A stretch of 64,000 bases of DNA from Candidatus Tectimicrobiota bacterium (lineage in GTDB: Bacteria; Tectomicrobia; Entotheonellia; Entotheonellales; Entotheonellaceae): contig BPKO01000011.1 of assembly GCA_026005175.1 (NCBI GenBank), positions 62,001 through 126,000 on the forward strand. The letters run 5' to 3'. Under the pieces are notes generated by a model. That model was not told where the DNA came from. It saw only the letters and a list, made by a program, of their open reading frames with translations, and ran no database searches. The position numbers and the translations under genes are program-made. Below, in pieces: positions 15,645 to 19,355 of this stretch (position 1 is the stretch's first letter; each line of letters starts with the position of its first letter).

Positions 15645-16360
15645 AGACGGCGCTTGCCATCCGCCACGTGCCGTTTGAAGACCTGGGCAGCTTTGCCGCG
15701 GTGCTAGCCGAAGCGGGCTTTGCCGTCACCTACCTGGAGGCGGGCCTCGACGACTTGCAGGCCGTGGCACCGCTGGCGCCTGACTTGCTGGTGGTGCTCG
15801 GCGGCCCCATCGGGGCTTACGAGGAGGATGCCTACCCCTTCCTGCGCCACGAACTGGCCCTGCTGGAGCGACGCCTGGCGGCCGGGCGGCCAACGCTGGG
15901 CATCTGCCTGGGCTGCCAGCTCATGGCCCGCGCCCTGGGAGCCCGCGTTTATCCCGGGCCGCGGAAGGAAATTGGCTGGGCGCCCCTGCAGCTTACCGAG
16001 GCAGGGCGCCGCTCCTGCCTGGCCTCCCTGGCCGAGACACCGGTGCTGCACTGGCACGGCGACACCTTTGACTTGCCGGCCGGTGCCACCCGCCTGGCCT
16101 CTACCCCCCTCTACGCCAACCAGGCCTTTGCCTGGGGAGAGGCGGCTCTGGGCTTGCAGTTTCACCTGGAAGTGACGGCGCAGGGCCTGGAGCGCTGGTT
16201 CATCGGCCACGCCTGCGAAATCGGCGCCACCGCGGGCCTCAGCGTGGTGCAGCTGCGCGCCGACACGGCACGCTGGGCGCCGCGGCTGGCGCAGCAAGGG
16301 CCGGCCTGCCTGCGGCAGTGGCTGCAGCAGCTCTACGCGGCCTCGGGCGGCACGAGGTAA
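15641..16360 (+). CDS. Class I glutamine amidotransferase-like protein (GuaA N-domain type)
   Basis: The 239-residue single-domain protein shows the class I amidotransferase triad: nucleophile Cys in GICLGCQLMARALG, and the His and Glu in LQFHLEVT. VLGGPIGAYEEDAYPFL before it is also characteristic. Stand-alone proteins of this kind release ammonia from glutamine or hydrolyse gamma-glutamyl compounds. Its start overlaps the AhpD stop (ATGA), and its 3' end overlaps the convergent rhodanese gene by 28 bases. Confidence 0.82.
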   Translation: MKTALAIRHVPFEDLGSFAAVLAEAGFAVTYLEAGLDDLQAVAPLAPDLLVVLGGPIGAYEEDAYPFLRHELALLERRLAAGRPTLGICLGCQLMARALGARVYPGPRKEIGWAPLQLTEAGRRSCLASLAETPVLHWHGDTFDLPAGATRLASTPLYANQAFAWGEAALGLQFHLEVTAQGLERWFIGHACEIGATAGLSVVQLRADTARWAPRLAQQGPACLRQWLQQLYAASGGTR

Positions 16361-17415
16361 ACGCGCACCGGCCCTTCTTCGATGCCGTCGAGCTGCAGCG
16401 GCGTCGCCTGAGGGCGAAAGCGGGCGGCGAGATCGGGATGCACGGCGCGCGCCGCCGCCACCAGGGCGTCGGTGGCGATGATGCCTCCGGGCGGGGCGTG
16501 CTTGAGGAGGCGCGCCGCAATGGGGAGCGCCGGCCCCACCATGGCGATCGACTGGCGAAAGCGCGAGCCGATGACGCCGATAAGCAGCGGACCCGCATTG
16601 AGGCTGAGGCGCGGCAGCGGCAGGGCGGGATAGCGCCGACGCTTGGCCAGCAGCGCCCGGCGCAAGGCAAAGGCTGCCGGCACCGCTTCTTTCACGCTCT
16701 CAAAGTAAAGCAAAGCGCCGTCGCCCTCGAAGTCTTTGACGTCGCCGCAGTACGCCACCGCCGTCTCGGTCACTTCCTCCATGAAGGCCTGGATGAGGGC
16801 AAAGGCCTCTTCTACCGTGTGGTGGTAAAGCAGCGCCGTGGAGTTGGCCATATCCACAAAGAGCACCGCCAGCTCGCGCCGCGCCGGCAGCCGCTGCGGC
16901 TGCAAGAGGCCGCTCTCGGCCAGGTGCGGCAAAAAGGTGGTGAGCGGCGCGGTTTCGGCAGACAGCGGCGCCGCCGTGGCCGGCGCCGTGTGTACGGCCG
17001 GCGGCTCGGTGCTGCTCGGGATGCGCACCACGGGATAGCCGCGGCGCCGCCAGGCCTCAAGGCCGCCGCTGAGCACCGCCACTTCAGTAAAGCCCTGGCT
17101 CAGGAGCCACTGTGCCACCCGGGCACTGGTGGTTTCCCCCTCTCACGTGCAGTACACCACCAGCGGCGTGGTGCGCGGCAGCGATGGCACCACCGGCGGG
17201 CGCACGTCGAGGCTAAAGCGCAAGGCCCCTGGGATCTGGTAGGGCTGCTGCGCGTACCCTTCCTCGCGCCGCACGTCGAGAATCACCGGCGGCTGGCCGC
17301 TAGCCAGGCGGGCCTGCAAGTCTTCAGGCGTGATGTAGCGCAGGCTACGGGCTTCGCCAGGCACGGCCGCCGGCAACGCCGTGCCCTGCCCCGCTTCGCG
17401 TTCGGATACCGACAT
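16333..17415 (-). CDS. Rhodanese-adenylate/guanylate cyclase fusion with in-frame TGA (candidate selenoprotein)
   Basis: One frame runs from ATG 17415 (AGGAGGG upstream) to the stop at 16333, broken only by TGA at 17145-17143. Before the TGA is a rhodanese half (VILDVRREEGYAQQPYQIPG, VVYCT); after it the same frame continues EGETTSARVAQWLLSQGF then LSGGLEAWRRRGYPV, completing the domain. In homologous rhodaneses this site reads CxC-x-x-E-x-x-SARVA, so the TGA falls exactly on the second cysteine. Residues from about 175 form a class III cyclase domain (VLFVDMANSTALL, KDFEGDGALLYF). Either UGA encodes selenocysteine or this is a Cys-to-stop mutation; a fitting hairpin follows the TGA. It would couple sulfur chemistry to cyclic nucleotide signalling. 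Confidence 0.65.
17112..17145 (-). promoter_or_regulatory. Possible bacterial SECIS hairpin
   Basis: On the minus strand the TGA is followed by 21 bases and then a hairpin GTGCC-CGGGT-GGCAC (stem 17122-17126 with 17112-17116, loop 17117-17121), with CCA/TGG able to extend the stem across a bulge. The distance to the loop and the G at loop position 2 fit what is known of bacterial SECIS elements. High GC content makes chance hairpins common, so this is suggestive only. Confidence 0.35.
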
Positions 17416-17428
17416 CCGCAGCACCCTC

Positions 17429-17770
17429 CTACGGCTTGGGCGGCAGGCCAAAGGACTCGTAGAAGCGCTGCAGCCAGCCTTCTTCCTTGGGGCCGACGAG
17501 CTTTTCGAACTCTTCCTTGTCGAGCCAAATGCCACCGCAGCCCGGGCACTCTTCGAGCACGTTGCGGTGGTAGGTAATCTGGTGCAGCGGCTCGCCGCAC
17601 TTGGGGCAGCGCATGTGCGTGTAGGTGCGGATGAGGGCTTCGAGCTCCTCGGCATCTTTTTTGCGCAGCTGCTCCAGCAGCTCCTGGTTGAGCTTGCGGA
17701 AGTAGGCTTCCTCGCGGCCGCGTTCTGCCAGCCGCAGCTTTTCCCCCAGGTAATCTTTTTCCTGTGCCAT
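17429..17770 (-). CDS. Zinc-ribbon protein (zf-TFIIB type)
   Basis: The 113-residue protein has a charged helical N-terminal half (RLAERGREEAYFRKLNQELL) and a zinc ribbon formed by two cysteine pairs, MRCPKCGEPL and CPGCGGIWLDKEEFE, which is the zf-TFIIB family signature. Its partner is unknown. It lies 13 bases downstream of the rhodanese-cyclase start region, within a run of minus-strand stress genes probably transcribed from the sigma-54 promoter near 19360. Confidence 0.75.
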   Translation of the reverse strand: MAQEKDYLGEKLRLAERGREEAYFRKLNQELLEQLRKKDAEELEALIRTYTHMRCPKCGEPLHQITYHRNVLEECPGCGGIWLDKEEFEKLVGPKEEGWLQRFYESFGLPPKP

Positions 17771-18063: not shown

Positions 18064-18912
18064 TCAATCGTTCGCAGCGTGGCACAACACCAGCGGCATG
18101 GGACAGACCCGCAGCAAGTAGCGCGTGGTGCTGCCCAAAAGCCACTCCACGATGCGCCGGTGGCCAAAGGCGCCGATGAACACCAAGTCGTAGCCGTGCT
18201 CGAGGATATAGCTCACCAGGTCCTCGTGCGGGTTGCCCGGGCAGAGGGCAAACGAGCACGCCACGCCGCTTGCCGCCAGTCGTGCGCGTGCTGCCTCCAG
18301 GCACGCCTGGCCGGCTTCCGCCGTGGGGCTGCAGTGTACCACGTGCAGGGGCAAGCCCAGCCGCTGGGCAAAGAACACGGCGGTATCCAGCGCCGCCGTG
18401 GCCGAAGGACTGCCGTCGGTGGCCACCAGCAGGCGATGCACCGGGGCATAGTGCTCCGGGCTGACCAGCGTCGGTTTGCCGGCGTGGCGCACCACCCGCT
18501 CCACCGCTGACCCCAGTAAGGCCTTTGACAGGCGGGTGTGCAGCCCCCCGCGCCCCATCAGAATCAGGTCGACGTCCCTGGCGGCGCGCAGGATCTCGTG
18601 CGGCACCACCCCTACGGCCAGCTGCGTCTCACAGGCCACCCCGGCGTCTTCGCAGGTGCGGCGAAAGGTGGCCAGCAGCTGCTGCCCGCGCAGCTCCAGG
18701 TTCTGCCGCATGAGGGCAGTGAGGTTGAGCTGCGGCGCCGCCCCAATGGCCCCGGCCAAGTCGTAAAGCAGCGGGCTTTCCACCTGGACGATGTCCACCA
18801 CGTGCACGCCGCGCAGGGTGGCCCCAAACGCCCGGGCCAGCATGACGCCGTACTGCAAGGCCGCCTCGCTGTGCGGCGAGCCATCAAGGGCCACAAGCAG
18901 GCGCTGGCGCAT
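18064..18912 (-). CDS. Tandem-domain universal stress protein
   Basis: The 282-residue protein has two UspA domains (LLVALDGSPHSEAAL at residue 5 and LLVATDGSPSATAAL near 160). Nucleotide-binding G-x2-G-x9-GS motifs are seen as GRGGLHTRLSKALLGSAVE in the first domain and GAFGHRRIVEWLLGSTT in the second, so ATP binding is likely. Usp proteins help survival under energy or oxygen limitation. It sits 3 bases downstream of the DUF5335 gene and shares its sigma-54 promoter. Confidence 0.9.
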   Translation of the reverse strand: MRQRLLVALDGSPHSEAALQYGVMLARAFGATLRGVHVVDIVQVESPLLYDLAGAIGAAPQLNLTALMRQNLELRGQQLLATFRRTCEDAGVACETQLAVGVVPHEILRAARDVDLILMGRGGLHTRLSKALLGSAVERVVRHAGKPTLVSPEHYAPVHRLLVATDGSPSATAALDTAVFFAQRLGLPLHVVHCSPTAEAGQACLEAARARLAASGVACSFALCPGNPHEDLVSYILEHGYDLVFIGAFGHRRIVEWLLGSTTRYLLRVCPMPLVLCHAAND

Positions 18913-18915
18913 CGC

Positions 18916-19272
18916 TTACTCCGGCAGCTGCGGCTCTGGACGCAGCGTCACCAGGGTTTCGGTGCCGTCGGCGGCCGCCACGCGAATGGACGTTAAGTCT
19001 TCGCCCGGCACCGGGTGTACTTCGATTTCCACCGGACGGACAATTGTGTGCGTGAGATGCACGGGATAGCGGCTGCTCATTCCGCCCACGGTAATCAAGA
19101 GCTGGTCGTGGTGGGGGTCATACGAGATGCCGGAAAAAGGAATCCAGGCCGCCTCCTCCTGGTCACCGTAGTCACGCCCCAGGATCTCGATCCGTGCCAT
19201 GTACCCGGCGTGGGTCTTGGAAAAGTCGTCAAAGTAAGCCTGCCATACGGCTCGCTCGAGCCTCTCCTGCAT
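18916..19272 (-). CDS. DUF5335 family protein
   Basis: The 118-residue protein matches DUF5335 (EILGRDYGDQEEAAWIPFSG, then ISYDPHHDQLLITVGG, then RPVEIEVH), a small family found beside universal stress and Hsp20 genes. ATG 19272 has GGAGGAGAG directly upstream. It is the first gene after the minus-strand sigma-54 promoter at 19356-19371 and so probably leads an operon with UspA and the genes downstream. Confidence 0.75.
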   Translation of the reverse strand: MQERLERAVWQAYFDDFSKTHAGYMARIEILGRDYGDQEEAAWIPFSGISYDPHHDQLLITVGGMSSRYPVHLTHTIVRPVEIEVHPVPGEDLTSIRVAAADGTETLVTLRPEPQLPE

Positions 19273-19355
19273 CGCGCTCTCCTCCAATCGCTTCCCCAAC
19301 TATACCCCACAGCACCCTCCGGTGCCTAGCAGCCACCTGGGCTTCCTTGTCATTT

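Follow-up and report, generated by a model that had tools for sequence, protein, structure and literature searches.

A predicted selenocysteine-containing C-x-U rhodanese joined to a class III cyclase-like domain in Candidatus Tectimicrobiota

The DNA analyzed here, hereafter the window, is a GC-rich stretch of 64,000 nt from Candidatus Tectimicrobiota bacterium (GCA_026005175.1, BPKO01000011.1 positions 62,001-126,000). On its minus strand, the frame 17415..16333 begins with ATG, ends with TAG and contains exactly one internal stop, the TGA at 17145-17143 (codon 91); the initial annotation had likewise described it as broken by the TGA alone. To automatic annotation this is a "broken gene"; it is instead likely to encode a selenoprotein. 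The Zn-ribbon gene upstream stops 13 nt before the fusion gene on the same strand, and because of this small gap the two genes are probably co-transcribed. The neighbourhood of Zn-ribbon, Usp and DUF5335 genes suggests, without proving it, a stress-response operon. The features are as follows (window coordinates):

16333..17415 (-): fusion gene, rhodanese (CxU) plus class III cyclase-like; 360 amino acids if the TGA encodes selenocysteine (Sec)
17413..17437 (-): start region, GGAGG-type ribosome-binding sequence before the ATG at 17415-17413, as read from the sequence
17044..17331 (-): rhodanese domain, residues ~29-124 (Pfam PF00581; NF041203)
17149..17151 (-): Cys89 (TGC), catalytic Cys of the rhodanese loop
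17143..17145 (-): in-frame TGA, codon 91, predicted Sec at the second position of C-x-U
17112..17126 (-): candidate bSECIS upper stem-loop GUGCC-CGGGU-GGCAC, 0-based offsets +16..+30 after the TGA
about 17107-17132 (-): lower stem CCAC/GUGG around the upper stem-loop
16885..17019 (-): Pro/Ala/Thr-rich linker, ~residues 133-177, of low model confidence
16381..16884 (-): class III nucleotide cyclase-like domain, residues ~178-345 (phmmer, Foldseek)
17429..17770 (-): Zn_ribbon_TFIIB protein, upstream neighbour
18064..18912 (-): universal stress protein (Usp), upstream neighbour
18916..19299 (-): DUF5335, upstream neighbour

The Pfam PF00581 match (residues 29-124, E=1.1e-11) crosses the TGA without a gap, which bears out the earlier view that the rhodanese domain is continuous on both sides of it. 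Among all NCBIfam models, NF041203 (rhodanese_LYCAU, "rhodanese-related (seleno)protein") was the best for the fusion protein (E=1.4e-23), with scores of 82.9 bits as protein and 78.6 bits in a six-frame search that did not reach its cut-off of 115. The structure model of the rhodanese part is good, with pLDDT values mostly of 89-98 per block over approximately residues 21-130. The active-site loop reads Y-C89-T-[TGA91]-E-G-E94-T-T-S-A-R-V-A, so that the TGA occupies, as had been proposed, the second Cys of a C-x-C loop that is followed by Glu and then SARVA; a C-x-U/C loop with a subsequent Glu and SAR is also the signature of NF041203. In a tree computed from few columns, the fusion rhodanese lies on a long branch beside same-family rhodaneses that carry Cys at the Sec column.

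The genome assembly comprises 3.99 Mb in 14 contigs (completeness 77%). The initial annotation had called for a search for selA, selB, selD and tRNA-Sec, and had held that a lack of selB and selC would speak against selenocysteine; all four genes were found. The profile search detected selB with 391 bits (cut-off 242), and selB is present in all four genomes of the family that were examined, the present one counted. The adjoining selA was recognized by its sequence, without a model score. The tRNA-Sec gene (selC) scored 76.5 bits against a gathering score of 47, and ARAGORN independently reported a tRNA-SeC(tca). The selD gene has its own in-frame TGA in a CAG-U motif; SelD is an internal example of a selenoprotein with a TGA-encoded Sec in the same genome. 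An EF-Tu-like gene at G000:C7:10013-10667 is split over two frames, an observation consistent with indel-type errors in this assembly.

We scanned GTDB genomes with a DNA pattern in which TGA was fixed at the Sec column. This yielded at least 118 stretches with the CxU motif, all of which except L171 read as rhodaneses; >115 rhodaneses from about ten phyla thus have TGA at the identical column. Among the matches listed, the loop consensus is C-x-U-x-x-E-x-[TS]-S-A-R or near to it, and the phyla include Acidobacteriota, Chloroflexota, Myxococcota, Thermodesulfobacteriota, Gemmatimonadota, Nitrospirota, Rokuibacteriota, Pseudomonadota, Thermomicrobiota and Vulcanimicrobiota. To the question whether relatives carry Cys or TGA at this column, the answer is both: TGA is seen in the same-family genome L066 and, more distantly, in L072, L076, L077 and L080, and TGC or TGT in other relatives. 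The fusion protein was also matched against two further genome sets, and the top-ranking rhodanese matches there likewise mostly contained TGA. Matches in plasmid records were rhodanese-only or cyclase-only; the two examined were Cys rhodaneses and served as controls. A GTDB scan with the whole fusion protein found no relative; the likely reasons are that few close relatives exist and that the back-translated pattern over the loop expects TGY in the Sec column.

Downstream of the TGA, the predicted RNA contains a hairpin of 5 bp with a 5-nt loop, CGGGU, that starts 21 nt past the TGA and has G at loop position 2; both the distance and the G had been noted before. Published limits for bSECIS elements are a loop of 3-9 nt, a stem of 4-16 bp, G in the first two loop positions, a distance of 16-37 nt from the UGA and an energy of at most -7.5 (PMC13188914). 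The hairpin lies within these limits, for the energy only with the lower stem counted: by itself the upper stem computes at -6.1 kcal/mol (-7.6 as the centroid of a longer stretch), close to the limit, and both stems together reach -11.4. Because the general bSECIS rule is satisfied after ~20% of the TGA triplets in the window, and because the RNA downstream of the TGA folds not clearly better than shuffles (z 0.49 and -0.39; single-sequence fold), the hairpin taken alone is weak evidence for Sec.

The weight of the hairpin stems from its conservation at an identical offset in >100 homologues. Among the matches listed, the loop of the best hairpin starts at +21 in 92 of 120 loci and at +22 in 19 more. 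Since two of the five pairs and the loop G are prescribed by the collection motif, the free positions were tested, against synonymous recodings that leave the protein unchanged. The complete set of five pairs is formed in 92% of the 119 homologues among the matches listed, against 5.3% of synonymous recodings, the homologues being mutually related, so that such counts are not independent events. In the same set, the free pair 17-29 is C-G in 95, T-A in 16 and T-G in 4 cases, and the Ser codon that supplies G16 is of the AGY type in 116 of 119; in the fusion gene it is AGT. In L212, two Ala are changed, one to Thr and one to Val, and the pair is nonetheless kept as A-T. Four homologues lack the complete hairpin, three with Cys (L209, L226, L227) and one with Ser (L214) in the Sec column. 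In the fusion gene itself none of the five pairs is missing (5% by synonymous chance), and with four outer pairs the count rises to nine (1.8%). These sequence comparisons clearly point to a covarying SECIS hairpin at a fixed offset that is shared by CxU rhodaneses. As a separate observation, L214 (G089) is a relative of the CxU-type rhodaneses in which the Sec column is Ser (AGC) and the hairpin is lost, a possible Sec-to-Ser replacement.

In the C-terminal part, residues 178-345 matched CyaC (1wc0) in phmmer with E=1.2e-7. Foldseek retrieved CyaC 1wc6 (E=5.3e-8), a result that is supporting only, given a low-confidence cyclase model as query and a high rmsd. The Pfam PF00211 score of 11 bits did not reach the gathering score of 21.9. 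In comparison with twelve homologues, the metal Asp188 and Asp232 and also Arg302 are kept, and Asp228, Ala291, Pro298 and Asp343 replace the usual Lys, Thr/Asp, Asn and Lys, which, by the roles in CyaC, we take to be the base-binding Lys and Thr/Asp, the ribose Asn and the triphosphate Lys. Of the residues that characterize an active class III cyclase, the two metal Asp are therefore found and those for base, ribose and triphosphate are not. Position 228 is variable in several of the twelve homologues too, and the Asn-to-Pro and Lys-to-Asp changes consequently weigh most. Because four substrate-binding positions are replaced, cyclase activity of the second domain appears doubtful, and the residues present make ordinary adenylate cyclase activity as a homodimer unlikely. 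The earlier designation as a cyclic-nucleotide cyclase thus stands as a fold assignment, on the CyaC matches, and does not stand as a statement of activity.

Outside this genome, a two-domain match was found neither among 386 genomes, nor among 396 genomes of another phylum, nor on plasmids, and a search of four genomes for other such fusions gave none. The published selenoprotein lists consulted, which do name CxU rhodaneses, do not name a cyclase-bearing selenoprotein. The suggestion that the fusion is an undescribed selenoprotein accordingly agrees with both the lists and the 800-odd other genomes, and the predicted rhodanese-cyclase-like architecture is new within what was searched. The fusion rests on a single assembly with indel errors.

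In bacterial selenoprotein genes, an in-frame UGA has coding sequence on either side, the UGA column is aligned with Cys or Sec in homologues, and the genome encodes SelA, SelB, SelC and SelD; each of these was found here. Could the TGA nevertheless be a true stop that stems from a wrong base in the assembly or from a recent nonsense mutation, the gene being a Cys rhodanese-cyclase or a decaying pseudogene? The assembly does contain broken genes, and others have been reported in the 64-kb window. A random change, however, would need to fall on precisely that column at which >115 homologues carry TGA, and it would have done so in a gene in which the Sec hairpin is complete, whereas it is incomplete in the examined Cys and Ser homologues, and in which the long frame downstream of the TGA is otherwise intact; we consider this explanation very improbable. 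Even less credible is an arrangement of two products, a short rhodanese-like peptide terminated at the TGA and an independent cyclase-like protein with a downstream start: although an open reading frame from, for example, GTG 17118 is present, the rhodanese fold would be halved inside its catalytic loop, and its C-terminal half is conserved, with Gly117, Gly118 and Trp122 invariant in the homologue comparison. With the Sec machinery, the TGA column and the conserved hairpin all in support of the earlier proposal, TGA codon 91 of the predicted selenoprotein is almost certainly read as selenocysteine.

The two-domain architecture has rivals of its own. A CxU rhodanese gene and a cyclase-like gene might have been falsely joined by an indel error in the linker, as could be argued from the low complexity of the linker, the indel errors of the assembly and the occurrence of the fusion in one genome only among those searched. 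The Pro/Ala/Thr-rich linker, on the other hand, resembles a real interdomain linker, there is no Met between the domains, and CxU rhodaneses elsewhere are fused to other domains (VTT, Na/H exchanger), and we judge a false joining to be quite unlikely. Full adenylate cyclase activity of the C-terminal domain, under regulation by the rhodanese, is also unlikely, if somewhat easier to entertain: in its favour, neither metal Asp nor the Arg has been lost; against it, Asp, Ala, Pro and Asp take the places of Lys, Thr/Asp, Asn and Lys, the residues for base, ribose and triphosphate in CyaC-type enzymes.

In the favoured interpretation, a true fusion with Sec at codon 91 and a cyclase-like domain of doubtful activity, the UGA would be decoded by SelB and tRNA-Sec, guided by the hairpin 16-30 nt downstream, to give a 360-residue selenoprotein. 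Cys89 would most probably acquire sulfane sulfur as a persulfide, or become oxidized, and Sec91 would quickly resolve it by way of a selenenylsulfide between the two residues. The loop might then pass on its redox or persulfide state to the C-terminal domain beyond the flexible linker, and this domain would bind a nucleotide, or else have a cyclase activity that is weak or depends on a partner. The protein can thus be pictured as a redox module that works through selenenylsulfide and persulfide and feeds into a nucleotide-binding or degenerate cyclase output. We put forward the coupling of the Sec loop to the second domain only tentatively; equally speculative is the view of the protein as a selenoprotein signalling sensor, in which the Cys-Sec pair responds to sulfane sulfur, selenium or the redox state and acts as a switch on the activity or the nucleotide binding of the covalently attached cyclase-like domain. 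If true, the sensor reading would tie selenocysteine chemistry directly to second-messenger signalling. A Sec domain on a signalling-type domain is absent from the published selenoprotein lists consulted, and its prediction here raises the question whether a Cys-Sec loop controls a nucleotide cyclase-like domain.

Further rhodaneses were seen in this genome and in same-family genomes. A frame at G000:C1:397053-397442 (L068) in the same genome has TGA at the catalytic Cys itself (ILHURRDGRAALAG) and is likely a second Sec-rhodanese; its TGA is also found in the same-family genomes G001, G002 and G003 (L067, L075 and L074), and it resembles the UxxG forms of published lists. Two loci of same-family genomes (L064, L065) encode a UxC rhodanese (VLYUTCPHHLASL), the mirror image of CxU. 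Finally, a 669-aa frame at G000:C10:116498-118045 comprises approximately four tandem rhodanese domains without an internal stop.

The CxU Sec-rhodanese has already been predicted, as "Rhodanese-like form 3, CxU" (PMC13188914) and as "COG0607 form 2, CxU" (PMC9312934). The Sec reading of the initial annotation is upheld, and the CxU form itself is contained in NF041203 and in both publications; by sequence, the fusion rhodanese is a divergent member of this known, predicted kind. It shares with NF041203 and the CxU forms the Sec at the second position of C-x-U, the conserved Glu and the SAR motif, and with the collected CxU rhodaneses the offset of the hairpin. It differs in having Glu-Gly in place of the usual Pro-x after the Sec, in its score of 82.9 bits, below the cut-off of 115, and in being joined to a cyclase-like domain, a partner that the lists consulted do not name.

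As in the fusion gene, a CxU loop with TGA and hairpin is found within a larger protein in VTT(DedA)-rhodaneses (L202, L213) and in Na/H exchanger-rhodaneses (L208, L212); in these a membrane domain comes first and the rhodanese after it, whereas in the fusion protein the rhodanese comes first, ahead of the cyclase-like domain. The annotation of the VTT and Na/H exchanger proteins would be truncated if the TGA were read as a stop. Since it is joined to VTT and Na/H exchanger domains, the CxU domain has been recombined elsewhere too, and the CxU rhodanese, with representatives in about ten phyla, is wider in distribution than its single-domain model implies and more often part of a multidomain protein. 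With class III adenylyl cyclases such as Spirulina CyaC (1wc0/1wc6), the fusion protein shares the fold, the two metal Asp and the Arg, and it departs from CyaC in the replacement of four base-, ribose- and phosphate-binding positions.
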